Source of the DNA: Treponema sp.
GTDB taxonomy: Bacteria; Spirochaetota; Spirochaetia; Treponematales; Treponemataceae
NCBI GenBank assembly: GCA_024693045.1
Contig: JAILLQ010000039.1
Span: 62,001 to 126,000, forward strand
Reading direction: 5' to 3'
DNA: 64,000 nt
How positions within the stretch are numbered: position 1 is the first letter of the stretch; each line of letters begins with the position of its first letter. Below, piece by piece: positions 38,947 through 63,369 of this stretch. Below the pieces are notes generated by a model. It saw only the letters and a list, made by a program, of their open reading frames with translations, was not told the DNA's origin and ran no database searches. Made by a program: the position numbers and the translations under genes.

Positions 38947-40559
38947 TAATGAAGTCCAATTCCGATTGAGATTTCATAACTCTTAACAGAAGAGTCTCGC
39001 CAGTCCTGGTTGAATTTTCCTTTGAGATATGGCATTTTTCGGCTTAAATCAATACCAATGCTTCCTCGTATATTAATTCCCCTCATCTTAAGAGGGAAGA
39101 TAAGTCCTTCGATACCTCCGGAAAGGAAACCGTCTTCGGGATTAAATATTGTACCAGTTGCTTTGTTTTGGAAAATTGCAAAATCAATAAATGGTGAAAT
39201 TTGAACTTCCATGTCAAAATATTTGGAATATTTTATTTTATTTGCAATAGGTACATCAGCCCAGTGAATTGTTCCTAATTTGATAGGAAAATCAACATTG
39301 ATGACTATTGCGGTTTTTGAAGAACATGCATTTGTATGTGTAAGCAAAAAATAATCTGTAACTGCTTCAGTATCTGTTAAATCTGTTGGATAATCTGCAT
39401 CGAATTTCTGTGAACTTACAATACCTCGCAATCTGTCACCGAAGGAAGAATAGCCTTTAAGATTTGCAAAACCGTATATGCGAGAGTTTATACCAAAATT
39501 AAAGGTTTTATCTTTAATTGGAATTTCAAAGGCTTTGTAAAAGTAGAGTTCTGCAGAAAATCCTGTGGTATAAGTATTATTTGTAAAAGCATAGGTGTAA
39601 GATTGCATTAAAGTGCCTGCAAAACCATTTCGGAAATTTCCTATCCAGTTTATTCTTGCCGTACCGATGGACTGCATAAGTCCTACGCCCTGGGTTACAA
39701 TAGAATCTCTTACAGAATCGTCTATATCATCAGCTGTCCAGTTTGCAACAAAAGTTGCCGCTGGAGTATAAAGAACTTTTCCCCAGTTTGGAATTTCTTG
39801 TAAAGTTATTGGAAGGGCTAGCATGTAATTTTCAGTAAAATAAGTTAATTGGTCGATAGTTTCTATCGTACCGTCATCTGTTGTAAAGTCATATTCTACT
39901 TTTCTTACAGAGGCCTGCTTAAATTGGTTTACAATTGAAAACTTTCCAAAATCTTTTGTGAGCTTTAAACCTGTGTTTAAATCCCATGAAGGGGAGCTCT
40001 GTCCTGCTTCGTAGTCTATAGCAACTGAGTTTGTCCAAACTGCATCAAATATGCTTAATTTAAATGGTACATCAAAGTCGAATTGAAAACCTATTACAGG
40101 ATTTGGATTAGATCCACACATTTCAAGGTGAAAGTCAGATGACATTGTTTCCAATGTACCTAAAAAGTTTGAATCCCTTGCCTTTATTTTTACATTGAGA
40201 CCACTTGATGAACTATATTTCGGATAAGGTACCAGCAAAAGATGATGACTGTCTTCAACATATACAAGAAGGTTAACTGAAGTAATTCCTTTTTCGTCTT
40301 CTTTACCAACGGTAAAATCAGTTTTAATTTCTTCAAAAGCTCGAAGATTATTTAATCGCATTTTGTAATCTTCGATGTAATTAACTAATTCGTCTTCTGA
40401 GGAAAAAATCTTTTTTTTATCTACTTTTTCTTTTGTTTCCAAGGCATATCGTTTTGTTTGTCCGTCGATTACATATTCAACCTTGTCGATTCTGTAGGAA
40501 GCTGCGAAAAGAACACTTGAAATTAGAAAATACAAAACAGTTGAGAGAAACTTCTTCAT
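38943..40559 (-). CDS. BamA/TamA-like outer-membrane protein with one POTRA-like domain
   Basis: This 538-residue protein is read from the ATG at 40559, which overlaps the wbaP stop (TAATG). Its signal peptide (about 1-20) ends VLFAA. A POTRA-like domain (about 22-115) has YRIDKVEYVIDG, an acidic helix with LRAFEEI and VNLLVYVED. The rest is a beta barrel of alternating hydrophobic strands ending in an aromatic-terminated strand (ISIGIGLHY), the usual recognition signal for the Bam machine. Omp85 proteins insert barrels or export substrates. Its coupling to the glycan initiating enzyme suggests a dedicated role in glycan display. The barrel is shorter than in BamA. Confidence 0.72.
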   Translation of the reverse strand: MKKFLSTVLYFLISSVLFAASYRIDKVEYVIDGQTKRYALETKEKVDKKKIFSSEDELVNYIEDYKMRLNNLRAFEEIKTDFTVGKEDEKGITSVNLLVYVEDSHHLLLVPYPKYSSSSGLNVKIKARDSNFLGTLETMSSDFHLEMCGSNPNPVIGFQFDFDVPFKLSIFDAVWTNSVAIDYEAGQSSPSWDLNTGLKLTKDFGKFSIVNQFKQASVRKVEYDFTTDDGTIETIDQLTYFTENYMLALPITLQEIPNWGKVLYTPAATFVANWTADDIDDSVRDSIVTQGVGLMQSIGTARINWIGNFRNGFAGTLMQSYTYAFTNNTYTTGFSAELYFYKAFEIPIKDKTFNFGINSRIYGFANLKGYSSFGDRLRGIVSSQKFDADYPTDLTDTEAVTDYFLLTHTNACSSKTAIVINVDFPIKLGTIHWADVPIANKIKYSKYFDMEVQISPFIDFAIFQNKATGTIFNPEDGFLSGGIEGLIFPLKMRGINIRGSIGIDLSRKMPYLKGKFNQDWRDSSVKSYEISIGIGLHY

Positions 40560-42043
40560 TAATAAGCACCTTTTCCGTTGATAACAACCCAAATAGTTTT
40601 AATGATAATCCATATATCGAGCCAAACGGACCAGTTCTGAATATAGAAGGTATCAAGTAAAATTCTTTCTTCATATCCTGTATCAGAACGACCAGAAATT
40701 TGCCACATACCGCTAAGGCCTGGAGTTACTGAAAGTACGTATTCAGCATCTTCTCCATACTTTTCTATTTCATCCTTAGTTACAGGACGCGGACCGGTAA
40801 AACTCATTTCTCCGATAAAAATATTCCAAAGTTGTGGTAATTCATCAAGACTTGTTTTTCTTAAGAATTTTCCAAATGGAGTTACGCGAGGATCATCAAC
40901 AAATTTTCTTTCGGCTTCCCATTCTGCTCTTCTAACAGGATCGTTAGCAAGAATTTCTTCGAGCATTTCCTGGCTGTTCTTGTACATAGAACGGAATTTC
41001 CAGCATTTTATAATCTTACCGTTTTTACCAACTCTTTTATGACCGTAAAAAATAGAGCCTGGAGATGTAAGTTTGATAATAATTGCAATTATTATAGAAA
41101 TAGGAATTACTAAAATTGCTGTAACAATACAAATAAAAAGATCAATTAACCTTTTAATAAAAAGATTACCTGGTTTTGTAAGAAAATGAGTAGAGGAAGC
41201 TGCAAGAATTCCTCCGATATCGCGGACACTCATTGATGAAGCAAAATAGTTTTCTGACCGTGCTACACTCATAGTGTACCTGTAGCTGGACATTATAGGT
41301 CTAATTTGCCCCTTATAATCGCACATAATTGCAACTTTTATGTTAAGGGCTTTAATTACACTTAGAATTTCTTTGGTTTCTGGGAAAACAGGAATATCTC
41401 CATGCATGGAACATTCACTTGAATTGCTGTCAATTATAATAGCCGGCTTGTATCCAAGATGTTTGAATTTGCAAAGTCTTTGAATAACTTCGTCGCCACT
41501 GTTTCCTGTTACGTAAATTACGGCTGGAACTCCCCAGAAATTGAATTTGCCTAAAAAGTGCCTTGCGATTTCTCGTGTACCTGGCAGAATTATCGTAGAT
41601 ATAATGGTTGCTACGATGAAGGCTGAGATTACACCTCCATTACTACTGTCTTTTACAAGAATATCGCGAGTAAAATCGTTTTGACGAGAAAGATTTACTG
41701 GATAGCGAACCAGAAAGAAGATACTTATTGATATACCCATAAAACAGAAGAAAGAGCAAAGCGTAAGTTTTTTTACTTCTTCTGAAGGGCTGACCATGAT
41801 TCCCGGGTACAAACCTGCCGCGTAAAAAACAATAAGAATCAGTGGAAAATAGAAAGAATAATATATAAATGAACGAAAGTTAATTACTGGTGGATTTATA
41901 ATATTGACGATGAGAAAGGCTAAACCGATACAACAAAAAAGTCCAACACAATCGGCTATCATAATCATGAGACCAGATAGGAAAGAACTGGTTCGGTTTC
42001 TGTAAGTTTTTTCGAAATAACTAATGAAATCTTTAGAAGTCAT
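40559..42043 (-). CDS. wbaP: Undecaprenyl-phosphate sugar-1-phosphate transferase (WbaP-like)
   Basis: This 494-residue polyprenyl glycosylphosphotransferase has four or five N-terminal membrane helices, a Rossmann-like middle domain (about 150-250) and a C-terminal bacterial sugar transferase domain. That domain begins with a membrane segment (KRLIDLFICIVTAILV) and has the catalytic motifs KFRSM, LDELPQLWNI and SFTGPRP. It loads the first sugar phosphate (Gal or Glc in WbaP proteins) onto the lipid carrier, starting glycan assembly. It lies between the glycosyltransferase genes and the barrel protein. Confidence 0.92.
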   Translation of the reverse strand: MTSKDFISYFEKTYRNRTSSFLSGLMIMIADCVGLFCCIGLAFLIVNIINPPVINFRSFIYYSFYFPLILIVFYAAGLYPGIMVSPSEEVKKLTLCSFFCFMGISISIFFLVRYPVNLSRQNDFTRDILVKDSSNGGVISAFIVATIISTIILPGTREIARHFLGKFNFWGVPAVIYVTGNSGDEVIQRLCKFKHLGYKPAIIIDSNSSECSMHGDIPVFPETKEILSVIKALNIKVAIMCDYKGQIRPIMSSYRYTMSVARSENYFASSMSVRDIGGILAASSTHFLTKPGNLFIKRLIDLFICIVTAILVIPISIIIAIIIKLTSPGSIFYGHKRVGKNGKIIKCWKFRSMYKNSQEMLEEILANDPVRRAEWEAERKFVDDPRVTPFGKFLRKTSLDELPQLWNIFIGEMSFTGPRPVTKDEIEKYGEDAEYVLSVTPGLSGMWQISGRSDTGYEERILLDTFYIQNWSVWLDIWIIIKTIWVVINGKGAY

Positions 42044-42069
42044 ACAGTTTATTTTAACTAAAAAAGAGA

Positions 42070-43197
42070 TTACTGTCTATAAGACTTTAAACTGGCAATT
42101 TTTTTAGCATCCTGAACAGCTTCTTCAAATTCTTTTTGGAACCTTTCCTCTGTGAAACTTCTTGCATGAGAAACAATTTCATCTTTTTTGAAAACATTTT
42201 TAGAATCCAGTTCTTCAAATTGTTTTATAGCTTGGCACAAGGATTCTGTTTCCTGCTTATCAAAGAAAATACCTGTTTTATTTTCAATGACTGTTTCTCT
42301 AGCTCCACCACGTCCAAAGGCGATAACCGGTGCACCACAAGCCTGGGCTTCTAGCGGTACGAAGCCAAAATCTTCTTCGGCGCAGAATAAAAGGGCCTTA
42401 CATCTTTGAAGATGATGCTCTAAAAGGTCGTCAGCAGCTCTTCCTAAAAAAGTTATATTTTTATTACCGGAAGCTAGTTTCTTTAAGTTTTCCATTTCAC
42501 TTCCAGCACCAATTACTACAAGCTTTTTGTTAAGTTTCATACATGCAGAGATGGCTAAGTCTATTCTTTTGTAAGGAACCAGACGACTAAAAGCAACATA
42601 GTAATCTTCTCTATCTTCTTCTGATGGATTAAAACGGCTTACATCAACCGGTAAATAGATTACTCTGGCGTCACGAGCCCAGAATTTTTTAATTCTTCTT
42701 GCTATAAACTGTGAATTTGCAATGATTGTATCAATTCTTTGACTGGAAATGAAATCCCAAAGCCGCAATGATGGAATCCATCGGTTCATAAAAAATTGGG
42801 TTAATTTTCCGCTTCTTTTTCGGTAGTCAAAAAATAAATCCCAGGCATAACGCATTGGAGAATGGATAAAGGCTACATGAGGGACATAGGGTGGAGTAAT
42901 GACTCCTTTTGCACAGCAGGATGAAGAAGAAATTACTAAATCAAAACCTGTAAAATCAAAGGCTTCGAATGCGGAAGGCATAAATTTTAAAAGTTTTGTA
43001 TAAATTTTAGAAGCCATAGGTAATTTCTGAAGCTTTGAAGTGTGAATTATATTATTTTTAAAATGATTTCCTATTTTTTTTCTGTTGTACACAAGTGTAA
43101 AAATTTCTGCGTCAGGATAGAGCTTTAAAAGGTATTCAACAAAGAGTTCTGCTCCTCCATAATTTACAAGCCAGTCGTGTACTATTGCTACTTTCAT
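42070..43197 (-). CDS. GT4-family glycosyltransferase (WbaZ-like)
   Basis: This 375-residue GT-B enzyme has an N-terminal glycine-rich start, HDWLVNYGGAELF, followed by VISSSSCCAKGV. The C-terminal donor-binding site has FSRLVPYKRIDLAI and the EX7E-type segment FGFVPLEAQACGAPVIA. It resembles mannosyltransferases of the WbaZ group, but donor and acceptor cannot be told from sequence. It overlaps the upstream GT4 gene by four bases. wbaP follows after 26 bases. Confidence 0.88.
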   Translation of the reverse strand: MKVAIVHDWLVNYGGAELFVEYLLKLYPDAEIFTLVYNRKKIGNHFKNNIIHTSKLQKLPMASKIYTKLLKFMPSAFEAFDFTGFDLVISSSSCCAKGVITPPYVPHVAFIHSPMRYAWDLFFDYRKRSGKLTQFFMNRWIPSLRLWDFISSQRIDTIIANSQFIARRIKKFWARDARVIYLPVDVSRFNPSEEDREDYYVAFSRLVPYKRIDLAISACMKLNKKLVVIGAGSEMENLKKLASGNKNITFLGRAADDLLEHHLQRCKALLFCAEEDFGFVPLEAQACGAPVIAFGRGGARETVIENKTGIFFDKQETESLCQAIKQFEELDSKNVFKKDEIVSHARSFTEERFQKEFEEAVQDAKKIASLKSYRQ

Positions 43198-44249
43198 TTT
43201 AACTCCTGCGAAATTTTACTATGGATGATATTAAATGTTTTTTCAAACGAATACTTTTTTGGAATTGAAATTTCTTCATCTGATTTTTGATAAGCAGTGA
43301 TAATTTTTTGAGCAAGGTCATCTGAATCACCAGTTTTAAAAAATGTAACTGGAAAATCCTGATAGATTTCCTTAAAAACTGGAATGTCGGACATAAGAAC
43401 ATGACAGCCTAAAGAAAGAGCTTCAAGAGGTGGCATTCCAAAACCTTCATAAAAAGATGGCTGAATTAAAAGTTTTACTTTTTTGTAGAGATTTTTTAAT
43501 TCTTCATTAGAGATTTTTCCTGTAAAAATCACATCCTTACTGATTTCGCCAGAAAGTTTTTCAAAAATATTTGTATCGCTTGTTCTGAAATTTTCTGAAT
43601 TTCCTGTTATTAATAATTGGGCCTTTAATCCCTCTTTTCTAGCTTTTGTGAAGGCATCGAGCAGGACAGAAAGACCTTTGTGCTTTTTAATGTTGCCTAC
43701 AAATAAAATCTGCTCTGTCTTTTCTAAGAGGACTTCTTCTTTTTGCGAAAACCAGTCGGGAACGGCGTTGTAAGTGACCACGATTTCTTTTTTTGTTTTA
43801 AGGTGTTTTTCTATTCTTTCTTTAGAAAAATTGGAAACAGTAAAAATTAATCTAGAGCGGAATGCTGCATACAAATAAAAGAGCTTTCTTATAAATGTAC
43901 CGCTTTTTGAAGCTAAACCTGGAACGTCTAAAAATACTACATCATGAATTGTAGTGTAAATTGGAACTTTTATACCCTGAGGAATATTGCAATATGGTGT
44001 ATAGAAAGCATCGCACTTGTTTATTTCTCTGGAAATGTCTTTTGGAAATGATAAAAGTTCTTTTATAGAAAAAGGTTTAATAGGGCATTCAACTTTTATC
44101 GTCCTGTCTGAAAGCTTTAAACTTTCTAGTTGACTTTTGTTTCCGATGAGGGTGCATTCATAATTTTTTATGAAAAATGGAAGAAGGGCTTCTATATAGG
44201 AGCCGATTCCTCCACTTCCAAGCATTCTTACATCTATTGCAAGTTTCAT
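43194..44249 (-). CDS. GT4-family glycosyltransferase
   Basis: This 351-residue GT-B enzyme has an N-terminal IDVRMLGSGGIGSYIEALL, a central TVSNFSKERIEKHL and the donor site FVGNIKKHKGLSVLLDAF with FYEGFGMPPLEALSLGC. The sugar is unknown. It sits between the CDP-glycerol transferase-like gene (one base away) and the other GT4 gene (four-base overlap), consistent with consecutive additions to one glycan. Confidence 0.88.
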   Translation of the reverse strand: MKLAIDVRMLGSGGIGSYIEALLPFFIKNYECTLIGNKSQLESLKLSDRTIKVECPIKPFSIKELLSFPKDISREINKCDAFYTPYCNIPQGIKVPIYTTIHDVVFLDVPGLASKSGTFIRKLFYLYAAFRSRLIFTVSNFSKERIEKHLKTKKEIVVTYNAVPDWFSQKEEVLLEKTEQILFVGNIKKHKGLSVLLDAFTKARKEGLKAQLLITGNSENFRTSDTNIFEKLSGEISKDVIFTGKISNEELKNLYKKVKLLIQPSFYEGFGMPPLEALSLGCHVLMSDIPVFKEIYQDFPVTFFKTGDSDDLAQKIITAYQKSDEEISIPKKYSFEKTFNIIHSKISQELK

Positions 44250-44250
44250 T

Positions 44251-45483
44251 TTAAGCGTTTTCTACCGTTTTTATCATAAAGTCAGCAATATTTTTGCCTG
44301 AAGAACCTTCATTCATCCAAGCTGTTTCTTTAGCTATTTTTCTTTCTGCAGCTAGGGCTGGGCTGTCACTGGCTTTTTGAATTACTTCCTTGATATTTGG
44401 GAAATCCTTTTCTTCAAGTTTAATTCCCATTTTCTTTAATACTTCGAACTGCCAGAGTTCTTTATTTAAATCATATGCATCATATGGTCGTAAATCCATG
44501 TCTGTATTTACATACATAACAGGCTTATTGCAAAGGAAAGTGTAGTCAAAAATGATTCCAGAAAAGTCTGAAATCATAATGTCAGCCTTTTTCATTGCGT
44601 AGATATTGTCTCTGTTGTAGTCCCATTCTATATTTGGGTTGTCCTTATAGCGTTTTTCTAGTCTTTCAAGCATATCTGCTTCTGATTTTTTTGACTGTGG
44701 GTGAGGGCGAACAATAATTCTCCATCCTGTTTTTGAGAGAGGGTCTAGAAGTTTTTCACCGTATTTCTTAAGAACTCCAACTTCGCCCCACGAAGGTGAA
44801 ACTAAAACTGTGAAAATATGATTTTCTTCTGCTGGAATTGATTTTATTTTTTCTGAAAGTACGTCTAGGTATGAACATCCAACAGTTACTAGTTCTTTTT
44901 TTGTAATACCCCTTTCTTCTTCCAGTTTCTGAATATCATTTTTCTGGTAATCGCCTGTTAAGAGAACTGAATCAAAGTAATCTAAACCGAAAAGTCTATA
45001 TGTAGTTGCATCATTAGGCATGTGGAGAACATGAGAGTAGTGCTTTACATTTTTGGATCTTTTTAGCTGGTAAACTTGAAGTCCTGGAGTTGTCATTAGA
45101 ACAAAACCTGCAGAGAGCATATTTAATTTTGCAAATGCAGTATTTCCTTCACCTACAAATTCTGCTTTTACAAATTCGTAATTTGAATCAAAAATAGGAT
45201 CTGTTTTTGAAGATGTATAATAAGTGAGGTTAATTTTTCTCTTTTCAAACTCATCTACAACTGGTTTGAACACATTCCAGTACTGGTTTCCTTCGTTGTA
45301 AATTACATAAGGTTTGTAAGAGGCATCAAGAGCGGCCCCTCCGTCTTTTTTTCCAGATAAGAAAATCTTCAACTTGATGAAGGCGGCTTTTGCCAGGAAA
45401 AAGAGTGTTGCAGCGGCTCCAATCAAAATTGAAAAGAGCATGCTTCCTGTACCAGGGTCAATATATAATAAAGTGTTATGCAT
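44251..45483 (-). CDS. CDP-glycerol glycerophosphotransferase family protein (TagB/TagF-like)
   Basis: The protein has 410 residues. After a membrane helix at the N-terminus (about 14-34) comes a GT-B domain of the teichoic-acid glycerophosphotransferase family: VLVSPSWGEVG near residue 198, RIIVRPHPQSKKSE near 226 with the catalytic-type His-Pro-His, then DIMISDFSGIIFDY near 284 with the SDxSG motif and KPVMYVN. TagB/TagF-type enzymes transfer glycerol phosphate or related alditol phosphates to lipid-linked glycans. The N-terminal YIDPGTGSML motif recurs in members outside Firmicutes. It is one reason to expect a phosphate-containing polymer from this locus. Confidence 0.85.
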   Translation of the reverse strand: MHNTLLYIDPGTGSMLFSILIGAAATLFFLAKAAFIKLKIFLSGKKDGGAALDASYKPYVIYNEGNQYWNVFKPVVDEFEKRKINLTYYTSSKTDPIFDSNYEFVKAEFVGEGNTAFAKLNMLSAGFVLMTTPGLQVYQLKRSKNVKHYSHVLHMPNDATTYRLFGLDYFDSVLLTGDYQKNDIQKLEEERGITKKELVTVGCSYLDVLSEKIKSIPAEENHIFTVLVSPSWGEVGVLKKYGEKLLDPLSKTGWRIIVRPHPQSKKSEADMLERLEKRYKDNPNIEWDYNRDNIYAMKKADIMISDFSGIIFDYTFLCNKPVMYVNTDMDLRPYDAYDLNKELWQFEVLKKMGIKLEEKDFPNIKEVIQKASDSPALAAERKIAKETAWMNEGSSGKNIADFMIKTVENA

Positions 45484-45507: not shown

Positions 45508-48207
45508 CTATTTGATTCCCTGAACCCAGTTTTCAGAATCAAATAAATCTTTGCTAACGGTGTACCAGTCTTTTTCAGGAACCTTGAATGTATAAATTCC
45601 GTTTCCACCTGGTCGCCAGTTATGAGTAAGAACTACTCCTGAAGCTTTTTTATTTTCAGGATCCTGAGCTTTAATTTCTTTTCCTGTATAAGGATTTACT
45701 GGCTTTTCAATCAAATCCTTCATTGCAAGAGAAGGTACATCTGCAGTTGTCATAAATGCATTGTCGATTTTTAGTTTTCCCTCTGCATTAAAATCCTTCA
45801 TAAAGAGAATAGGATGGTTGTGGTCAGGATTGTAATATGAAGGCCATTCTCCCTTGAAATTGCTTAAGGCATAACCTTCCGGTGTACCAATTCCGTGGTC
45901 ACTTACAAATATAATTCTTGTATTGTCGTAGCAGTCATTTGCCTTAAGATAGTCAAACCATTCTGCCATTCTCTTGTAAACGGCGATATTACCGTCTGAA
46001 CTTGAAAGTGGCAATGGATTTTTGTTCGTTATATTCATAGATGGTTCAAAATCTGGTGCCTGCAATGGCTGCCCTGAATGAGTGGTGTCATTTACGATTG
46101 TAAAATACTGGTTTCCTTTTCCTTCGAAATCTGTAAGTCTTGGCATAAATGCAAGGGCTGAATAGTAGTCCAGGAATTCCATGATATCGCTAGTCTGGCT
46201 GTCACTTGACCACCACATTCCGTCGTCATAAACACTGTCTCTGGCAAAAAGTGGAACGAATTTGAAAAGACTGAACCAAGCTAAATTTCTTTTAATTGCG
46301 GAACTTGTAATATTTGCACGAACTTTATCAGGATTTTCTTTTACCCAAAGACCAGTGTACTTTCTTTCAATGTTGTAACCTGTAATTTTTGGGAAATTAT
46401 CTGTAATAGTCATGTCTGGAATCCAGCTGTAATTAGCCCAGCTTAAATCTGAAACAGTTGCAGTGAAATCAGCCTGTTCGGTAAAAATTCTAGGCATTAA
46501 AAGGAGAGCCTGATTCTGCTTGTCAACGAGTTTTTCTGTATTTCTTTTGTTTATTTCTGCCGGTGTATATTCGTAACCGCCGAATAGAGGTGGCGCACCT
46601 AAAAGAGTACCCTGGTTATATGAAACAGTATTCTTATAGAAAGTGAATCCAGTGTACTTGTCGTAAAGTTCTGGGAAGTTTTCGAAGATGGTTTCAACAT
46701 AAGCGGCCTGAGCCCTGTCAAACATGAAAACAAAAACATTTTTTCCTTCCTTTGTAAGGTGGTAAACCGGTGAAACCTTTGTTTCTTCATGTACATCTTC
46801 TGCAAGTGATTTTCTGTATGTATTGTAGGCTGAATTAATCTGACCGGCATGCACAAAAGTGATTGCTATTTCTGCCATCAGGATAATTGAAAGAAGAGCA
46901 CTTAAAATTTTTGTCTGCTTGAATTTTAAAAGCAGAGCTGGAATTACCATTATTATCAGAACAACAATTATGTTTAAAACTACGAATCCTGTGGACGGAG
47001 CCGATATTGAAGAGTCAAAAGTGATGAGTCTAGAAAGATTTCCGTAATTTCCGTTGAAACAGAAGGCGTCGACCATTGCTGTAAGCAAAATAGTTGTAAA
47101 GAAAACAGTAATGATTGTCTGAATTCTCTTATGAAATAGGAAATATACACAAATAGGCCAAAATACTAAAAGACCGACCATTTGTAAGGTTGAATTGTAT
47201 AGAAATCCTAATGGGTTTCCGCATCCGTCAATGTCTGCAAATTCTACAGCAGATGAATTAATTACAAAAGAAGGAACAACAAAGCCGGCAAGCAAGGCAA
47301 GAGCAAGAGCTGCTGTGATAAAGAGTGAAAAACGAGCTTTTGAATTGTTCATAAGCGGCTGATAAGCTGTTTTTACAAGATAGTTTACAAACTTTACAGC
47401 TAAAGGTGTTAATAAAAGTAATGAGAAAACTAAAGCAAGTAAAAGTCTTTTGTGTACAAAGCCCTGGTGAACAAATATCAGGTAAGAATCCAATCCAATT
47501 ACAGCAATTACCAAAATGCCATAAAGAACTTTGAGTGGATTTTTAATTTTATAGAAAATGTTTTTTACAAGAGAAAAAAGATTGTTCATGGTCCAGTAAA
47601 TTACTAGACCTGAAGGCGAATTGTAGAGTATTACAAGGAAAATTAAGGCCATACCGTAGATAGTTGCCTTGTCTTTAAACTTAAAGCCTTTTGTGTAAAT
47701 CGCACCAGCTACCCAGTTTATAAGGGTCATTGCTATTGGAAGTACATTTACAGGAAAAGAACCTATTTTGAAAAGTTCATCAGGTCTTCCCATGTTCTGA
47801 ATAAAGAAAAAGGCTTTTCCCTGAAGAACAGGAAGGTTAGAAAGAAAACTGTATGCTGCAATAAAGAATGGAACCTGAATTAAAAGTCCAAAGGAAGAAC
47901 GCAGGGCCATAAGAGGATGATAATGATTCTGCTTATAAAAAGTAGAAAGAATCATGTACTGTTCATCGCCTTTAAATACGCTTTTTATTCGATTTATTCC
48001 GGGATCAAGTTTTTTTTCGATATCTCGCTGAACTTGCTGCCAGTGTTCTGCAACAATGTAGAGGGGAAGGGTGCCTATTGAAACCGCAAGGCTTACACCA
48101 ATAACTGAAATCCCTTCGTTTTTAAATACGCTGTTGAATAACATAAATGAAAATTCAATCAACTGGATTAATGGATAGATGATTATCGTGTATAAAAAAT
48201 TAACCAT
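45508..48207 (-). CDS. YidC/Oxa1-like domain fused to LtaS/alkaline-phosphatase-type transferase, paralogue 1
   Basis: This 899-residue protein is read from the ATG at 48207. That start is fixed because residues 1-220 align with paralogue 2 without a gap. Residues about 1-220 form a YidC/Oxa1 domain with a YKQNHYHPLMALR loop, LLIQVPFFIAAY and ILYNSPSGLVIYWTMNNLFSL. The conserved groove Arg of YidC is Ser43. About seven further membrane helices follow (about 230-455). Residues about 488-860 are an alkaline-phosphatase superfamily domain: Asp497 (FMFDRA), candidate nucleophile Thr534 (QGTLLGAP), substrate-type His710 (NDTTH) and Asp770-His771 (VSDHG). These correspond to the LtaS/MCR metal and substrate set. 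Phosphoalditol or similar head-group transfer is likely. Confidence 0.82.
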   Translation of the reverse strand: MVNFLYTIIIYPLIQLIEFSFMLFNSVFKNEGISVIGVSLAVSIGTLPLYIVAEHWQQVQRDIEKKLDPGINRIKSVFKGDEQYMILSTFYKQNHYHPLMALRSSFGLLIQVPFFIAAYSFLSNLPVLQGKAFFFIQNMGRPDELFKIGSFPVNVLPIAMTLINWVAGAIYTKGFKFKDKATIYGMALIFLVILYNSPSGLVIYWTMNNLFSLVKNIFYKIKNPLKVLYGILVIAVIGLDSYLIFVHQGFVHKRLLLALVFSLLLLTPLAVKFVNYLVKTAYQPLMNNSKARFSLFITAALALALLAGFVVPSFVINSSAVEFADIDGCGNPLGFLYNSTLQMVGLLVFWPICVYFLFHKRIQTIITVFFTTILLTAMVDAFCFNGNYGNLSRLITFDSSISAPSTGFVVLNIIVVLIIMVIPALLLKFKQTKILSALLSIILMAEIAITFVHAGQINSAYNTYRKSLAEDVHEETKVSPVYHLTKEGKNVFVFMFDRAQAAYVETIFENFPELYDKYTGFTFYKNTVSYNQGTLLGAPPLFGGYEYTPAEINKRNTEKLVDKQNQALLLMPRIFTEQADFTATVSDLSWANYSWIPDMTITDNFPKITGYNIERKYTGLWVKENPDKVRANITSSAIKRNLAWFSLFKFVPLFARDSVYDDGMWWSSDSQTSDIMEFLDYYSALAFMPRLTDFEGKGNQYFTIVNDTTHSGQPLQAPDFEPSMNITNKNPLPLSSSDGNIAVYKRMAEWFDYLKANDCYDNTRIIFVSDHGIGTPEGYALSNFKGEWPSYYNPDHNHPILFMKDFNAEGKLKIDNAFMTTADVPSLAMKDLIEKPVNPYTGKEIKAQDPENKKASGVVLTHNWRPGGNGIYTFKVPEKDWYTVSKDLFDSENWVQGIK

Positions 48208-48243: not shown

Positions 48244-48293
48244 CAAAGGATGTCACGGGCTCTTCTATTTAAAATATAGCAAAGTGTATTATA

Positions 48294-48329: not shown

Positions 48330-50303
48330 ATGTTTTTAAGTTTTCGTAAAAAGATTTATTGTTTTTGTTTTATTGTATTCGCCTTGAATTCTCTTTCTTT
48401 TGCTCAGATTTATTCTTCACAACAACTTATTCCTGCCGGTCATTGGGTATATGATTCTATGCAGCTTCTTCACAATGCATGTAAAATGGCCTCTTTTGCA
48501 ACAAATGCTCCAATTTCGGTTGCAGAGTTAAAAATGTACCTTGAAGCAATTCCTTATGATGAACTATCTCCTGCTTCAAAAAAAGTTTACCAGTCTGTGT
48601 TTGATTTTCTTACAGAAAAGAAAAAGTCCTGGGATATTGGAGGATTAAAATTTGCTTTTAATGTAGATTTGTATCCTGAATTTTTATATAAATCAAATTC
48701 CGATATTGACTGGACTTTTTCAACCGATTATACAGGTCATTACAATTCTGTCATGGATTATGGTCTTGATTGTGGTCTGGACTACAAGGCAAAAGATTTT
48801 ACATTTGAAAAACTATCTGAAGCTAGAGCTCTAAATCAAAATGAATACAACATTTTTTTCAAAAATCAAATAAATAATTTAATTTCTCATCCTTCTCAGG
48901 GGGATAATGAAGCTTTATTTAGGGCATTGGGAATTGACTATACAGATGATTATGATGGAAGTGTAGACTATTATTCATCATCTTCCTTTAATACAATAAA
49001 CGGGTTGGGTAAAGGTTTTCTTACAATCCCTATTTATCTTGGTTGGGGAGACAATATTTTTATTGAAACAAATCCTGTTATTTCAAAAAGTATTGCTTCT
49101 ATGAGCGGTAACTATAACTGGTCTAATATACCAATGTCAGACAGTGATTTTGATTTTTTGTGGCCTAGAAATTCTTATATAAGTACTGGTAAGTGTTTTG
49201 GCGGATGGGGAGTGAATGTGAACTTTGCTCAACAGGGCTTACAAATTGGTAAAACACAGACAGGTAGCATAGTTTATAACTCAACCTTTGAAACAGAAGG
49301 GTATTTTCAGCTGAATCTTTATTCAAACAAGGTAAAATATAATCTTGATGTTGTACAAGTTAATTCAGGCCGTTACTTGTATATCCATTCTATTGAAGCA
49401 CGTCCTTATTTTGACTGGATTAAACTGGGAGTTGTCGAAGGAACTTTTATTGAACAGCCTTTCGAACTTAGGTTTTTAAATCCACTTATGATTATGCACT
49501 CATTTGGTGCATGGAACGATTATTCAAATTTTGCTGAAGAAAAGTTATATGGAGAATCTCATGCTGCAGCCTATATGGGATGGCAGATTGAAGTAAATCC
49601 AATTAATAATTTTAGAATTTACTTTTTGTATGCTCAAAATGAAATTCAGTCTGATTCTGAAAAAAGTTCTGCAAATGGAAATGCTATCCCTGACAGTTTA
49701 GGTGCTCAACTAGGTTTTGAATTAACACTTCCTGAAGCTAAGAAGGGCGGCTGGTGGACCGGTACTATCGAAGGAGTTTATACTTCTCCTTATTTGTATA
49801 TAAAACAGGGGGCCGACTGGTCTTTGTACAGCAAAAGATATAATATGCAAAGCGACTCTGATATTCCAATTTGTTCATGGATAGGAAGTCCTTTTGGACC
49901 TGATGCTGTTGGTATTCAGGCTCGTTTAGGTTATAATCTGCCTAAGAAGTGGTCTGCAGAATTCGATTATCTTTTCCTTGCTCATGGAACGAATTCTTTT
50001 GGCTTGTTTGATAATACAATTGAAATTGCAGGTCAGACATTCTATGCTTATTATCCGTCTGTTCTATACCGAATGGGGCTTTTAAATGCTGATCAGGCAG
50101 CTAATATTGCTAGAGATTACGCTTTGACAGGAACTGTTTCATACACGAATCAAATTACTTTGAAAGGTTCCTATAATATAAACAGTCATTTTTCTATCTG
50201 TGGACAGGGAACTTACTGTTTTATTTTTAATAATAAAAATGTTGCTGGTGATTTTGAGCATGGATTCGAAATAGCACTTGCACTTGAATACTTAATGTTC
50301 TGA
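48330..50303 (+). CDS. Wzi-like outer-membrane beta-barrel protein, first of a tandem pair
   Basis: This 657-residue protein has a signal peptide (about 1-25, ending SFAQ). A helical N-terminal domain (about 30-95) includes HWVYDSMQLLHNACKM and ISVAELKMYLEAI. This resembles the helical plug region of capsule-assembly Wzi proteins (a D-x-LLa-x-G ... PLS-x-x-I/L pattern). The rest is a large beta barrel rich in Tyr, Trp and Gly, ending in the aromatic-terminated strand EIALALEYLMF. Wzi binds capsule at the cell surface. The equivalence is a fold-level guess, but outer-membrane location is well supported. The next gene begins 13 bases downstream. Confidence 0.72.
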   Translation: MFLSFRKKIYCFCFIVFALNSLSFAQIYSSQQLIPAGHWVYDSMQLLHNACKMASFATNAPISVAELKMYLEAIPYDELSPASKKVYQSVFDFLTEKKKSWDIGGLKFAFNVDLYPEFLYKSNSDIDWTFSTDYTGHYNSVMDYGLDCGLDYKAKDFTFEKLSEARALNQNEYNIFFKNQINNLISHPSQGDNEALFRALGIDYTDDYDGSVDYYSSSSFNTINGLGKGFLTIPIYLGWGDNIFIETNPVISKSIASMSGNYNWSNIPMSDSDFDFLWPRNSYISTGKCFGGWGVNVNFAQQGLQIGKTQTGSIVYNSTFETEGYFQLNLYSNKVKYNLDVVQVNSGRYLYIHSIEARPYFDWIKLGVVEGTFIEQPFELRFLNPLMIMHSFGAWNDYSNFAEEKLYGESHAAAYMGWQIEVNPINNFRIYFLYAQNEIQSDSEKSSANGNAIPDSLGAQLGFELTLPEAKKGGWWTGTIEGVYTSPYLYIKQGADWSLYSKRYNMQSDSDIPICSWIGSPFGPDAVGIQARLGYNLPKKWSAEFDYLFLAHGTNSFGLFDNTIEIAGQTFYAYYPSVLYRMGLLNADQAANIARDYALTGTVSYTNQITLKGSYNINSHFSICGQGTYCFIFNNKNVAGDFEHGFEIALALEYLMF

Positions 50304-50316
50304 TTTTGGAGCTTAT

Positions 50317-52254
50317 ATGAAAAAAATTATTGCATGCCTTGTTTTATTTTTTACCCTTTCTTTTAATTTCTTTGCTCAGGAAAATTTAACTATTGATATG
50401 GGTGATGATATTTATGCTGTTCTGGAAATAGCAGAAGAGAGGGGGCTTTGTACTCACTTACCAGGAATCAGACCTCTTTCTTTAAGAAGAATACGGCTTG
50501 CATTAGATCAAATTCTTGAAAATTCTGAATCTTTAAAGCCTGAAGAAGTAAAAATTATAGAAAACTTTCTTGACCTTCATGCTCTTCCTGAAAAAAATCA
50601 TTTTGGTCTAGATAAAATTAATTGGGCCAACAAGCAGGACATCTGGAGATGTTCTTTTAATTATACATTTGGACTTGAAGCATCCGGTTCTGGTGGTTTG
50701 TATACCAATTCAGATTTTAATATGGCCGGTTTTGATATAATTCCATTTTGGGATTTTTTCGGTGACGCAAGTAAATTTGTTTCGTATAGGCTTCATGCTT
50801 TTTTTGATATTTCAAGTATGGAACTTTATCAACCTGAAGGCTCTGATTACTTTATCGGTTATTCATGGTATGACACAGGAGTCGAAGAGTATTGCGGTGG
50901 CTATACTGATGTTGAACCAAGAAGAAGAACTGTAAAGAAGTTTTTGAATACAAGTTATCTTCCATTTGCATACAATAAACAGTGGGATGGTCAGTTCTAT
51001 TATTTTTCTGACCTTTCTGCCAATGGTACTGACAGTTGGGCAACAGAGCCTGGTATCAGTGGCGGTATAAAGGGTGAAATAAGAACATCTCTTTTTGACG
51101 GAAGATTTACAGTTGGGGCTGCTCGAATGAGCCGCGAATGGGCTGCAATGGATGACGGTTCCAGCCTTGTATTGAACGCGAAGGCTAGACCTTTCTTTAG
51201 CGTTGACACAAGCGTAGAACTTTTTTCATTCTTAAAATATTCGTCTCTTACAGGTATTCTTGAATATCCAAACCAGGATTACATTAATTCTAATTCCTAC
51301 GCTGAATTAAAAGCTGGGGTTGATGATTCTTATTTCTTCCAGAATGCATTTTCTTTGAACATGCTTGAACTTGATTTCAAGTATTTCCATTTCGATTTTG
51401 GATCTTCTTCTGTTTGGCCAAAACGTTTTGAAATAGGTTATATGTTCCCTCTCTTCCTTTTGGTAGAGTATCAGAATCATATTGGTGACTGTGATAATCT
51501 AGCTGTCTTTGCGGACTTTAAGTTCCGAAAGCCTGGTTTGGGTGCAATTTGGGCCTCAATTTATCTTGATGAAATTAACGGCTTTAATAACAATCCTTTA
51601 ACTTCAAGCCGAGCTATGTTTGCCGGTCAGCTGGGTACAAAATTTGTTATTCCATGGTTGAACTATTCTATGCTTTCATTCCGTTACACAAAAGTTGAAC
51701 CCTATTGTTATACACACCATTCCATTAATTATGCACCTTCATTCAGTCATTACATAAGTGAAAGCTATACAAACAATGGAGAATGTCTTGGATATTATCT
51801 TCCACCTAACTCTGACGAATTCCTTCTTCACTTTGAAACTATGCCTAAAGCAGGTGTAAATGCTGATATTCAGTATCAGTTTATTCGTCACGGTGCTGAC
51901 TACGGTAGCCAGCAGGTTCCAGGAAGTTCTTTATATTCTGAAATGAACGTATACAATCGCGACGATTTGAAAAAGTATTTTTTACATGACGGAGCTTATA
52001 ACTGGATGCACATTTTGAGTGCCGGTGCATCTGTGGAATCCAGAAAGACTAAGATTCCATTTAAAGTAACTGGTAATGCAGGTTTTGTGTTCAGTTATTA
52101 CACGGTTATAGATTCAGATGTTTATAACGACAAGGATGCTAATGGGGTTTCCGCAGCCGATGAAAACACACCTTTCCATTTCGTGGACAATGCCGAATAT
52201 CCGGTAATGTGTGGAGTGGTATTAAGTTTAGGAGTTTCTTTCTTCGGCTTCTAA
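50317..52254 (+). CDS. Wzi-like outer-membrane beta-barrel protein, second of a tandem pair
   Basis: This 645-residue protein has a signal peptide (about 1-21, ending FFAQ). A helical N-terminal domain includes DDIYAVLEIAEERGLC and RPLSLRRIRLALDQIL, which fits the Wzi plug pattern better than its neighbour does. The barrel has many Tyr/Trp/Phe-rich strands and ends GVVLSLGVSFFGF, a normal Bam signal. GGAGC lies before the ATG. Its last 27 bases overlap the 3' end of the convergent glycosyltransferase gene. A surface anchor or exit pore for the glycan made by the flanking genes is the best guess. Confidence 0.72.
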   Translation: MKKIIACLVLFFTLSFNFFAQENLTIDMGDDIYAVLEIAEERGLCTHLPGIRPLSLRRIRLALDQILENSESLKPEEVKIIENFLDLHALPEKNHFGLDKINWANKQDIWRCSFNYTFGLEASGSGGLYTNSDFNMAGFDIIPFWDFFGDASKFVSYRLHAFFDISSMELYQPEGSDYFIGYSWYDTGVEEYCGGYTDVEPRRRTVKKFLNTSYLPFAYNKQWDGQFYYFSDLSANGTDSWATEPGISGGIKGEIRTSLFDGRFTVGAARMSREWAAMDDGSSLVLNAKARPFFSVDTSVELFSFLKYSSLTGILEYPNQDYINSNSYAELKAGVDDSYFFQNAFSLNMLELDFKYFHFDFGSSSVWPKRFEIGYMFPLFLLVEYQNHIGDCDNLAVFADFKFRKPGLGAIWASIYLDEINGFNNNPLTSSRAMFAGQLGTKFVIPWLNYSMLSFRYTKVEPYCYTHHSINYAPSFSHYISESYTNNGECLGYYLPPNSDEFLLHFETMPKAGVNADIQYQFIRHGADYGSQQVPGSSLYSEMNVYNRDDLKKYFLHDGAYNWMHILSAGASVESRKTKIPFKVTGNAGFVFSYYTVIDSDVYNDKDANGVSAADENTPFHFVDNAEYPVMCGVVLSLGVSFFGF

Positions 52255-60483: not shown

Positions 60484-60490
60484 AAAGATC

Positions 60491-62248
60491 CTATTCGTTT
60501 ATCATAGGATATTTTAGATAAACGTAATATTGATTTCCTTTTCCGTAAATAGTGTGATAGAAAGTGTCTTCTATCATTGGTAAATCTGTTAACTGTTTTT
60601 TGAATTCTGGAAGCAAATCTAATTCTGCAAGAGTGTATTCGCTTAAGAATTCGAAATCCATATTGTAGCCCTTGATGATATACTTTGTAAGAACAGGTGA
60701 AACAGAGCCAGCTCCAATTGGATAATTCTTTCTTTCCATGCGAGATTTTCCAGGCATTCCTGTAATTCCGCCAATATAAATAGAGTTAGGCTGGTCGAAA
60801 TCAACAATTTTACTCAAATCATTTGCAAGAATTGCAAAACGGAAATCTTCATAGTCTTTCTGTTTTTGGATGAAGTTTCCATAAACAACAGCTTCAACAA
60901 TAAGTCCGTAAACGAAACAAACAGCCAAAACTGATGTAATTTTCTTTGTTGTAATTTGATTTCTAAGACCGCTTACGGCATAAATAGCCAAAAGTGCGAT
61001 GAAAATATCAAAGCCAAGGAAAGTTCTGTTTGTAATTAATGCTTCAGAAAGAACAAGATAAGCTCCCATTGTAAGAGAGAACATGGCAAAAAGAACAACC
61101 AATGACATAAGAATTGTAGACCAGACAGCTCTTTGTCCACGATTTACAATTGCTGTAACAGGGAAAAGAATTGTCCAAACAATAAGAAGAGCTTTAATCC
61201 ATGTGTTTCCACAAAGGCTTATTGTGTACATTGCATAGAGTTTGTAATTGTTTTTAATCATTTCAAAAGCTTTTAAACCAAATGAAATTTCTGTTCCTCT
61301 TGAATCTAGAGAAGAATCAAATTGGTTCATAAGGAAGAATTTGAAGAAGAACAAAGCAATTACATAACAAGCTATTGAAATTCCTCCGAAAGCAGCAATT
61401 TCTGAAAATTTTCTATTTTTAAGCCACATTTTAAATGCGGTAAAAATTGCAAGAATAATGTAAATTCCGTTTGCTGCCTGATATGAAGTACAAACAAGAA
61501 TCAGCGAAATAAATGAAATAATAATGTAATCGGCTTTTTTCTCTGTAAAAAGGAATGGAAGAAGACCGAAAAGCATTGAAAGAGCCATATATGGGCAATC
61601 ATACTTGTATGAAAAGTTTGCAAGGAAGTAAATTGAAAGACCAGCAGTTGTTGAAACGGCAATAGACACCTTTGTAGGCTGCTTTTCTGTTACTATGTAA
61701 GCCAAAAGATATGATGTGATTGTAAGAACGATTATGGTCCACAACTGTGTTAATGGCGAAATATCGTTAATAAAGAAATTTGTATGAATAAATACAGCTA
61801 AGATTTCAGAAACATAACGGCTCCAGCCGACCCAGGCCTTATGTCCTGCGTAACACCTTCTGATATCATCAGCATATTCATAATTTGCCCGTATAAGAGC
61901 TGAATAGGCGATAAAATATATCACGGCAATAGCAATCAGGAATTTAAGGGTATTTTCCAATTTGAAAGCAGCAGTAGCATTTTCATAAACGCTTGACCAA
62001 ACTTTTTTTCCGAAGTTTGTGTAGAGGAAAAAATACCAGAAAATACCAATCAAGGCAAAAAAAGTCATTGAATGGACAAGAATATCATTCCATTTTGTAA
62101 AATCCCGTAATTCTCGATGAAGTACGAAAGTTTCCATCAATTTGATAATCAAATTCTTGCTAAATGGAATAATGCAGACAAAACATGCTGCAATTCCTAA
62201 AATCAAGAGAGTTTTGAATGAAAAGATTTTTTTGATTTTATCTGTCAT
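60491..62248 (-). CDS. GtrII-like membrane glucosyltransferase
   Basis: This 585-residue protein has about 11 membrane helices. A first large loop holds YADDIRRCYAGHKAWVGWSR near residue 125 and a helix with NFSYKYDCPYMALSMLFG near 210. This is the GtrII family pattern (an Asp-rich first periplasmic loop), in which a bactoprenol-linked glucose is moved onto an outer glycan. The C-terminal 150 residues are a soluble periplasmic domain. With the next two genes it forms a GtrA/GtrB/GtrII-like set. Its start has GGAGG upstream, inside the end of the gtrA-like gene. Confidence 0.8.
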   Translation of the reverse strand: MTDKIKKIFSFKTLLILGIAACFVCIIPFSKNLIIKLMETFVLHRELRDFTKWNDILVHSMTFFALIGIFWYFFLYTNFGKKVWSSVYENATAAFKLENTLKFLIAIAVIYFIAYSALIRANYEYADDIRRCYAGHKAWVGWSRYVSEILAVFIHTNFFINDISPLTQLWTIIVLTITSYLLAYIVTEKQPTKVSIAVSTTAGLSIYFLANFSYKYDCPYMALSMLFGLLPFLFTEKKADYIIISFISLILVCTSYQAANGIYIILAIFTAFKMWLKNRKFSEIAAFGGISIACYVIALFFFKFFLMNQFDSSLDSRGTEISFGLKAFEMIKNNYKLYAMYTISLCGNTWIKALLIVWTILFPVTAIVNRGQRAVWSTILMSLVVLFAMFSLTMGAYLVLSEALITNRTFLGFDIFIALLAIYAVSGLRNQITTKKITSVLAVCFVYGLIVEAVVYGNFIQKQKDYEDFRFAILANDLSKIVDFDQPNSIYIGGITGMPGKSRMERKNYPIGAGSVSPVLTKYIIKGYNMDFEFLSEYTLAELDLLPEFKKQLTDLPMIEDTFYHTIYGKGNQYYVYLKYPMINE

Positions 62249-62675
62249 TTTTTACCTCCGTTTTTTTATTGAATACAAAAAAGTTAGAAAATAAGAAATT
62301 AAATACCATACCCACAAGAATACCGATTCCCTGTGGAATAACTTTTAAGCTTAATGTTTTATCGAAAATTAGAAATTCCCATGATGATGTTTTGAGTAAA
62401 ATGGAGAAAACAAGAAAGTTTACGAGAAAGCCTACTAAAGAAACTGTGATGAATTTACCCCACAATTTTACAGAAAGAGCTTCTCCTTTATTTTCAATTT
62501 TGAATGTCCAAATATGATTAATAATATAATTTTGTGTGCAGGAAATTATAAAACAAAACACACTTACGGCATGAGCTTCTATTTTCAATATATCAGCAAA
62601 AATTGTGAAAAGTAAAAGATTTGTAAGAGTACCAAGTTCGCCAGTAACGGCGAACTTAATTATTTTTTTAAGCAT
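62238..62675 (-). CDS. GtrA-family membrane protein
   Basis: This 145-residue protein has four membrane helices and the GtrA signature: FAVTGELGTLTNLLLF at the N-terminus, SCTQNYIINHIWTF near residue 46 and a C-terminal VGMVFNFLFSNFFVF. GtrA-type proteins are thought to flip bactoprenol-linked sugars. It overlaps the GT2 gene by eight bases and the GtrII-like gene by 11, so the three are co-translated. Confidence 0.92.
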   Translation of the reverse strand: MLKKIIKFAVTGELGTLTNLLLFTIFADILKIEAHAVSVFCFIISCTQNYIINHIWTFKIENKGEALSVKLWGKFITVSLVGFLVNFLVFSILLKTSSWEFLIFDKTLSLKVIPQGIGILVGMVFNFLFSNFFVFNKKTEVKNDR

Positions 62676-63369
62676 TACGTATTCTCCAGACAGCCTTAAG
62701 TGCTTCCATAAAAATACCTTTGCTCATCTTTGACTGGCCGAACTGTCTGTCAGGGAAAATGATAGGGATTTCCTTAATAGCACAGCCGGCTTTATAAGCT
62801 TTGTACTTCATTTCGATCTGGAAGGAATATCCTTTTGAAATTATTGTATCCAGTCCAATTTTATCAAGGGCTTCTTTTTTCCACATATTAAAGCCGCCTG
62901 TTAAATCTTTTACAGGGCAAGCTAATACCATTCTTGAATATAAAGAGCCACCCTTTGAAATGAAGTTGCGGAGGGCGGACCAGCCTTCTACAGCACCACC
63001 TTTAATATTTCTAGAACCTATGGCAACATCATTGGTTTCCATTGCCTTATAAAGTTCTGGAAGATATTCAGGCTTGTGTGAAAAATCTGCATCCATTTCG
63101 CAGAGAACGTCATAGCCATTATCCATTCCCCACTTAAAACCTGTGATATAAGCATTTGCAAGACCACTTTTTTCCTTTCTTTCAAGAATATGTAGTCTGT
63201 TAGAAAAAGTATTCTGCATTTCTTTAACGGCATTGGCTGTTCCATCTGGAGAACCGTCATCCACTACAAGGATACCTGCGTTTTCAGGAATAACCTTAAA
63301 AACTTCAGGGATTATTTTTGAAATATTTTCAATTTCGTTATAAGTAGGAATTATCACAAGTAATTTCAT
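62668..63369 (-). CDS. GT2 polyprenol-phosphate sugar transferase (DPM1/GtrB-like)
   Basis: The protein has 233 residues. A GT-A fold has VIIPTYNEIENI at the N-terminus, VVDDGSPDGTA near residue 36, EMDADFSHKPEYLP near 92, GSRNIKGGAVEGWS and a C-terminal segment near FPDRQFGQSKMSKG. This is the dolichol-phosphate mannose synthase type (no C-terminal membrane helices), acting on polyprenyl phosphate to give a sugar-phosphate lipid for the GtrII-like enzyme. The sugar (Man, Glc or other) is unknown. CGGAG precedes the ATG, 21 bases after the thrC stop. Confidence 0.9.
   Translation of the reverse strand: MKLLVIIPTYNEIENISKIIPEVFKVIPENAGILVVDDGSPDGTANAVKEMQNTFSNRLHILERKEKSGLANAYITGFKWGMDNGYDVLCEMDADFSHKPEYLPELYKAMETNDVAIGSRNIKGGAVEGWSALRNFISKGGSLYSRMVLACPVKDLTGGFNMWKKEALDKIGLDTIISKGYSFQIEMKYKAYKAGCAIKEIPIIFPDRQFGQSKMSKGIFMEALKAVWRIRNA

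Follow-up and report, generated by a model that had tools for sequence, protein, structure and literature searches.

The window, a 64,000-nucleotide stretch of the Treponema sp. contig JAILLQ010000039.1, carries a gene whose product joins a YidC/Oxa1 fold (residues 1 to 221), seven more membrane helices and an extracytoplasmic alkaline phosphatase (AP)-superfamily domain, in that order. The gene heads a run encoding a TagB/TagF-like phosphotransferase and glycan-assembly enzymes, and a second fusion lies elsewhere in the window (Table 1). An alternative TTG start at 48246 would add 13 residues to the focal protein. Three apparent envelope proteins without a Pfam match are encoded at 48330-52254 (+) and 38943-40592 (-); relatives of the first two lie near fusions in other Treponema, at 13 and 8 loci. 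The window also encodes, at 4012-7239 (-), a 1075-residue acidic protein rich in Ser, Glu and Asp with short tandem repeats resembling DDFAADSIESPAEE, and long mirror frames run along it on the + strand.

Table 1. Features of the fusion gene and its surroundings in the window
Feature	Position	Strand	Remarks
YidC-like/AP-superfamily fusion protein (focus)	45508..48207	-	899 aa; ATG at 48207, stop ends at 45508
YidC/Oxa1-fold domain, residues 1-221	47545..48207	-	PF02096; Z 18.6 to 3wo7; separate clade
Ser43 codon	48079..48081	-	Site of the groove Arg/Lys of true YidC (E. coli R366, B. halodurans R72)
Family-specific cytoplasmic motif KGDEQYMILSTFYKQNHYHPLMALRSS, residues 79-105, with Arg/Lys103	47893..47973	-	Conserved across members
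Seven-helix membrane region, residues 222-470	46798..47544	-	pLDDT 89.9; weak match to YejM/PbgA membrane domain only
Extracytoplasmic AP-superfamily domain, residues 485-899	45511..46755	-	Z 18-20 to AP-superfamily enzymes
Thr534 codon, candidate nucleophile	46606..46608	-	Invariant; N terminus of helix 534-547 in the model
Asp770-His771 codons, candidate metal ligands	45895..45900	-	Invariant
TagB/TagF-like phosphotransferase, 410 aa, with N-terminal YIDPGTGSM membrane element	44251..45483	-	24 bp past the fusion stop; near-obligate partner
Two GT4 glycosyltransferases and WbaP-like undecaprenyl-phosphate sugar-phosphate transferase	40559..44249	-	Rest of the gene run
Second full-length YidC-like/AP fusion, 906 aa	57763..60483	-	42% identity over 913 columns; PF02096 E 7.7e-23
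GtrII-like, GtrA-like and GT2 (GtrB-like) genes	60491..63369	-	Directly upstream of the second fusion

An AlphaFold2 model of the fusion, built with an alignment of 47 sequences, had a mean pLDDT of 88.3 and a pTM of 0.79, with no residue below 50. Searched as a profile, the 47 relatives matched YidC structures from E. coli and Bacillus over the N-terminal part, whereas the C-terminal part matched structures of sulfatase, phosphonate monoester hydrolase and lipoteichoic acid synthase. With the YidC fold oriented N terminus out and C terminus in and followed by seven helices, Lys and Arg were richer in the cytoplasmic loops, and these positive-inside counts place the AP domain outside the cytoplasm. 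Mean pairwise identity was 61% for the YidC-like part, 40% for the AP domain and 29% for the middle helices; because no other part is as conserved as the YidC-like domain, it is not expected to be a passive anchor. In NCBIfam the fusion matched YidC families, always below cut-off, and otherwise gave just a weak match to a hydrolase, so that genes of this type are probably annotated as YidC. At least 155 proteins, drawn from many different assemblies, have the full-length architecture, which ruled out an assembly or frame artefact, and the existence of a separate canonical YidC, together with the distinct clades described below, ruled out an ordinary YidC extended by read-through. A phage or plasmid origin was also considered, for which tblastn gave weak matches to the YidC part only, none reaching 80% coverage; PADLOC gave no match for a defence function.

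Rather than a single joining event, the fusion proved to be a widespread family, present in many spirochaetes and some gut Clostridia. With each species represented by one genome, a scan yielded at least 343 confirmed relatives. Among the matches listed, the best came mostly from Treponema, T. bryantii and T. putidum among them, and from other Spirochaetaceae; Ruminococcaceae, Saccharofermentans and other Clostridia also contributed relatives. The loci that we read, from Spirochaetota and Clostridia, contain at least 155 full-length fusions, often in tandem, and single genomes hold up to about 12 copies. Contamination is an unlikely source of the Clostridia loci, because three MAGs have common flanking genes, the Clostridia fused domains form their own clade (100/100) and the six Clostridia genomes each encode a separate canonical YidC of 373 to 454 codons.

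Several loci illustrate the behavior of the family. The second fusion of the window (57763-60483), absent from the initial annotation, starts 8 bp past the GtrII-like gene and thus has a Gtr-type glycan-modification set alongside it (57763-63369, -). One Clostridiales contig (L134) has about seven tandem fusions around one TagB/F-like gene, an arrangement that looks like an expansion of acceptor specificities. Two T. putidum loci (L047:16717-20000 and L125:17950-21831) contain, next to intact YidC-like/AP fusions, extra copies that are truncated or have a broken frame. A contig labelled Tannerella (L123) that holds a spirochaete-type fusion is probably a binning error; it comes from the sample series of a Spirochaetaceae bin.

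The TagB/F-like protein encoded downstream of the fusion matched PF04464 with 33 bits against a cut-off of 22.1. A Y-I/L-DPG-T/S-GS motif is present in 72 of 80 partner relatives, and most of the other eight have YIDPGTGGM. Across 296 Spirochaetota genomes, in which the fusion or a standalone YidC-like protein was scored at E <1e-40, 68 encoded the fusion, 66 the partner and 65 both (Fisher p ~1e-60), and the corresponding counts in 341 Clostridia genomes were 11 for the fusion, 10 for the specific partner and 10 for both (p 2e-18), relatedness among the genomes making both p-values too small. Despite this inflation by kinship, the recurrence in a second class, the Clostridia, and the existence of genomes that lack both fusion and partner although their relatives are positive (G111 and G197, of the same genus as the window; G031 and G126; G231) argue for a real link. 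The fusion occurred without a detected partner in three Spirochaetota genomes, all drafts 85-91% complete, and in one Clostridia genome. Over the 155 fusions, the partner was an immediate same-strand neighbor 66 times, and 76 loci had the partner versus 97 with the fusion. For 54 adjacent pairs, partner divergence tracked that of the YidC-like domain (partial r 0.52; 0 of 500 permutations as high) and not that of the AP domain (-0.11). This is suggestive of a tie between the partner and the YidC-like domain, which may, however, simply be the cleaner clock. The initial annotation was correct in reading two real domains and an intact catalytic set, but the likely working unit also includes the TagB/F-like protein.

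The genes that flank the fusions bear on what this unit might transfer. PEP mutase lies near the fusions in 19 loci, phosphonopyruvate decarboxylase in 18 and PntC-aminoethylphosphonate transaminase (PntC-AEPT) in 17; GDP-heptose-type genes are present in 14-16 loci, LicC-like genes in 7 and cytidylyltransferase-aminotransferase fusions in 18. An example of the last, at L091:12783-14750, combines a cytidylyltransferase with a HisC/CobD-like PLP enzyme and could generate a CDP-activated amino-alcohol, e.g. CDP-ethanolamine, from a phospho-amino acid. Full-length PntC-AEPT is encoded by 23 of the 296 Spirochaetota genomes, 20 of which have the fusion, and the aminoethylphosphonate genes adjoin only part of the fusion family. 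In the window's genome the full CMP-AEP set is on a different contig from the fusions: contig C57 (L042:7260-14668) carries winged-helix LicC-like, PEP mutase, decarboxylase, PntC-AEPT and OpgB-like phosphoglycerol transferase genes in one cluster, and the partner may here use a different donor. Two other spirochaete families (L034:8556-12434 and L035:5733-9847) encode a standalone YidC-like protein, the partner and an LtaS-like protein consecutively, beside aminoethylphosphonate genes. The standalone LtaS-like proteins and the fused AP domain were related only at the superfamily level (BLASTP E 0.05; hhalign probability 0.9%); thus, the split loci follow the same logic but do not represent simple gene fission. 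In Clostridia, locus L136:4221-9998 places a cytidylyltransferase-PEP mutase, a PsrA-like iron alcohol dehydrogenase and a phosphonopyruvate decarboxylase between two fusions, and the company of a PsrA-like dehydrogenase with PEP mutase and decarboxylase suggests hydroxyethylphosphonate as a candidate head group. PntC activates AEP with CTP, and the tailoring steps that come later have been called enigmatic (PMC6697681). With this activation and the gene linkage, it is reasonable to suppose that the partner takes its donor from among nucleotide-activated head groups. The phosphate-linked glycoconjugate role initially proposed for the fusion in its glycan locus is strengthened by the CDP-glycerol-phosphotransferase-like partner and the CMP-aminoethylphosphonate genes; the chemistry, and the proposed moving of a product, are still putative.

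The N-terminal domain has the fold that had been read from its motifs, and the structure prediction that could have refuted the initial annotation bears out an Oxa1 fold there. Residues 32-219 matched PF02096 (60KD_IMP) with an E of 5.5e-21 (75.7 bits, cut-off 35), a match found in 47 of 47 relatives, and VIA-align superimposed residues 1-221 on Bacillus halodurans YidC (3wo7) with a Z of 18.6 and 2.9 Å over 208 residues, including the three-helix core and the cytoplasmic hairpin. It is nevertheless separate from canonical YidC. A tree built from 67 domains split the 17 canonical YidC proteins, among them those of E. coli and B. halodurans, each on a long branch, from 47 fusions and 3 standalone proteins at 100/100. 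At the groove position, Ser, Thr or Asn occupies 50 of 50 members (47 fusions and 3 standalone) versus Lys or Arg in 17 of 17 canonical YidC proteins, while residue 103 is Arg or Lys in all 50 members and Ser, Ala or Gly in canonical YidC. PF02096 matches three genes in the window's genome, namely an ordinary YidC with a frame of 584 codons (200.7 bits) and the two fusions (86.7 and 80.6 bits); indeed, every fusion genome tested has kept a separate ordinary YidC. On this sequence evidence the YidC-like domain is a distinct family, other than ordinary YidC. Given the separate clade, the missing groove Arg/Lys and the canonical YidC in the same genomes, the role in inserting membrane proteins that the initial annotation carried over from YidC should not be assumed.

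The groove positive charge has been described as strictly conserved in YidC/Oxa1 insertases, and the groove Arg of E. coli YidC is dispensable if residue 517 is aromatic or polar (PMC8920935). Since Trp205, at the position of E. coli residue 517, is kept in 47 of 47 relatives, loss of the Arg alone is compatible with insertase activity. The YidC-like domain might thus be a dedicated insertase or chaperone for the YIDPGTGSM hairpin of the partner or for the fusion's own helices, with no lipid moved and the AP domain still transferring head groups. We consider this possible but rather unlikely, although it accounts for the domain nearly as well as a lipid-crossing step. YidC folds are insertases and chaperones, the tolerance of Arg loss in the presence of an aromatic or polar residue 517 suits it and co-conservation with the partner fits it equally, whereas the fusion genomes tested also contain canonical YidC, the positive residue found in all aligned canonical sequences is missing from 50 of 50 members, and a single-substrate insertase tied to an outside enzyme would be hard to explain when one genome can have as many as about 12 of them.

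The about seven additional membrane helices first noticed in the sequence were located in the model at residues 224-246, 251-279, 289-318, 333-357, 360-383, 406-428 and 432-469. When the middle domain was folded alone, Foldseek returned no match at E <0.001, and comparison with the PbgA membrane domain (6v8q) was weak (Z 4.2 over 140 residues), so that the middle helices had no confident match to a known fold, the five-helix membrane domain of the LtaS/EptA/PbgA type included.

For the C-terminal domain the profile and fold evidence differed in strength. PF00884 (Sulfatase) matched residues 635-799 with an E of 2.9e-4 and 20.7 bits, just below the cut-off of 25, and matched 28 of 47 relatives, so of the two Pfam families named for this protein at the outset only PF02096 exceeded its threshold. 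The AP-superfamily assignment itself held in structure comparisons, in which VIA-align gave residues 486-899 of the model a Z of 20.1 to LtaP, 20.0 to phosphonate monoester hydrolase, 18.5 to LtaS and 18.4 to EptC, with sulfatases also matched. D497, T534, H710, D770 and H771, the catalytic set proposed initially and with exactly that numbering, are invariant in 47 of 47 relatives. They occupy the topological places expected of a metal site at the residue level of the predicted model, D497 following strand 490-496, H710 following 700-706 and D770-H771 following 763-768.

LtaS and EptA use Thr as the nucleophile, in contrast to the formylglycine Cys/Ser of sulfatases. In the fusion family Thr fills the nucleophile position of all 47 sequences compared, in the local context NQGTLLGAPP, and the formylglycine motif C/S-x-P-x-R was not found, which rules out a simple sulfatase; Thr534 in place of a formylglycine Cys/Ser favors phosphoryl or phosphonyl transfer over sulfate hydrolysis. 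The AP superfamily also includes hydrolases and the non-catalytic YejM/PbgA. A hydrolase or editor that strips glycans of phosphoryl, phosphonyl or sulfate groups, with the YidC part a mere anchor, is improbable: its best Pfam name is Sulfatase, and Foldseek and VIA-align rank phosphonate monoester hydrolases and sulfatases beside LtaS and EptA, but the invariant Thr534, the missing C/S-x-P-x-R motif, an N-terminal domain too conserved for an anchor and neighbors that are synthesis rather than catabolic genes all argue otherwise. Very improbable indeed is a regulator of envelope synthesis whose AP domain, as in YejM/PbgA, senses lipid and has no catalytic activity, as the top Foldseek match, an LPS-PbgA complex, and the weak resemblance of the middle helices to the PbgA membrane domain (Z 4.2) are set against five catalytic positions invariant in 47 of 47 and tandem paralogues better suited to enzymes than to a regulator.

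We favor, at roughly even odds, a reading in which the fusion is half of a two-protein relay that carries head groups from the cytosol to the outside for envelope glycans or glycolipids. The TagB/F-like partner would act inside, because CMP and CDP donors are located there, and would load a membrane-bound acceptor from a cytidylyl-activated donor that may be CMP-2-aminoethylphosphonate, CDP-ethanolamine-like or CDP-glycerol-like, depending on the species. The YidC-like domain would dock the partner or its YIDPGTGSM membrane hairpin and would offer a hydrophilic half-channel through which the charged, lipid-linked product crosses the membrane. Outside, the AP domain would take the phosphoryl or phosphonyl head group onto Thr534 and hand it to the glycan, as LtaS and EptA do, with D497, T534, D770 and H771 as the proposed metal site. 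Several paralogous fusions with one common partner would serve different acceptors. The transferase part of this relay is well supported, and its first and last steps draw on knowledge of the families. What computation shows is the two folds, the conserved catalytic residues, the separate YidC-like clade, the partner association and the linkage to genes for head-group activation; transferase activity itself, the identities of donor and acceptor, contact with the partner and the middle, crossing step are inferred. All Oxa1-family insertases tested, including E. coli YidC, scramble lipids in vitro via the same groove (PMC10491306), but such scrambling comes with the fold in general and is no proof of a physiological flippase. 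In this reading the YidC-like fold would serve for partner docking and probably for lipid crossing. More tentatively still, and at less than even odds, an Oxa1/YidC fold may have been repurposed to move a charged lipid-linked intermediate and joined to the outside enzyme that uses it, giving a flip-and-transfer machine with a dedicated cytidylyl-donor phosphotransferase for phosphoryl or phosphonyl decoration of spirochaete and clostridial surfaces.

Our search of the open literature for a description of YidC with sulfatase, LTA synthase, the AP superfamily, glycerophosphotransferase or Treponema found none, and the combination is, as first supposed, apparently undescribed. The near-obligate TagB/F-like partner and the frequent linkage to CMP-aminoethylphosphonate genes are new here, and fusion and partner together suggest an undescribed cell-surface decoration machine. 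If the relay is correct, it would provide a physiological case of an insertase fold acting on lipids or glycolipids, following the report of scrambling in vitro, and would explain how phosphorus-bearing glycolipids are built in spirochaetes, whose envelopes are poorly understood. The two proteins would then be candidates for the missing later steps of bacterial surface phosphonate decoration, called enigmatic in a 2019 study. They also carry a warning, as only one of the several "YidC" genes listed for a genome may encode an insertase, the others encoding enzymes that act on surface glycans.

Compared with known systems, the fusion shares with the YidC/Oxa1 insertases (PF02096; B. halodurans YidC2, 3wo7) the whole fold of residues 1-221 and an aromatic residue at the E. 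coli Y517 position, but differs in its groove Ser/Thr/Asn, the new HYHP...ALRS motif with Arg/Lys103, its own clade and the covalently attached enzyme. Like LtaS/LtaP and EptA/EptC/MCR, it places an AP fold outside after a helical membrane domain and has a Thr at the nucleophile position, an Asp-His pair and a further His; unlike them, it has an extra YidC-like domain and extra helices, and identity is only 10-15%. Asp497 takes the place of a Glu in LtaS. The PntC-type phosphonyl tailoring clusters, exemplified in T. denticola by Tde1415, contain the same PEP mutase, decarboxylase and PntC-AEPT genes, and the text describing them makes no mention of YidC, sulfatase, TagF or glycerophosphotransferase (PMC6697681). 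Finally, the partner resembles the TagB/TagF CDP-glycerol glycerophosphotransferases in matching PF04464 over its cut-off but is short (about 410 aa), has the conserved N-terminal YIDPGTGSM membrane element and is found almost only with the fusion or a standalone YidC-like protein.
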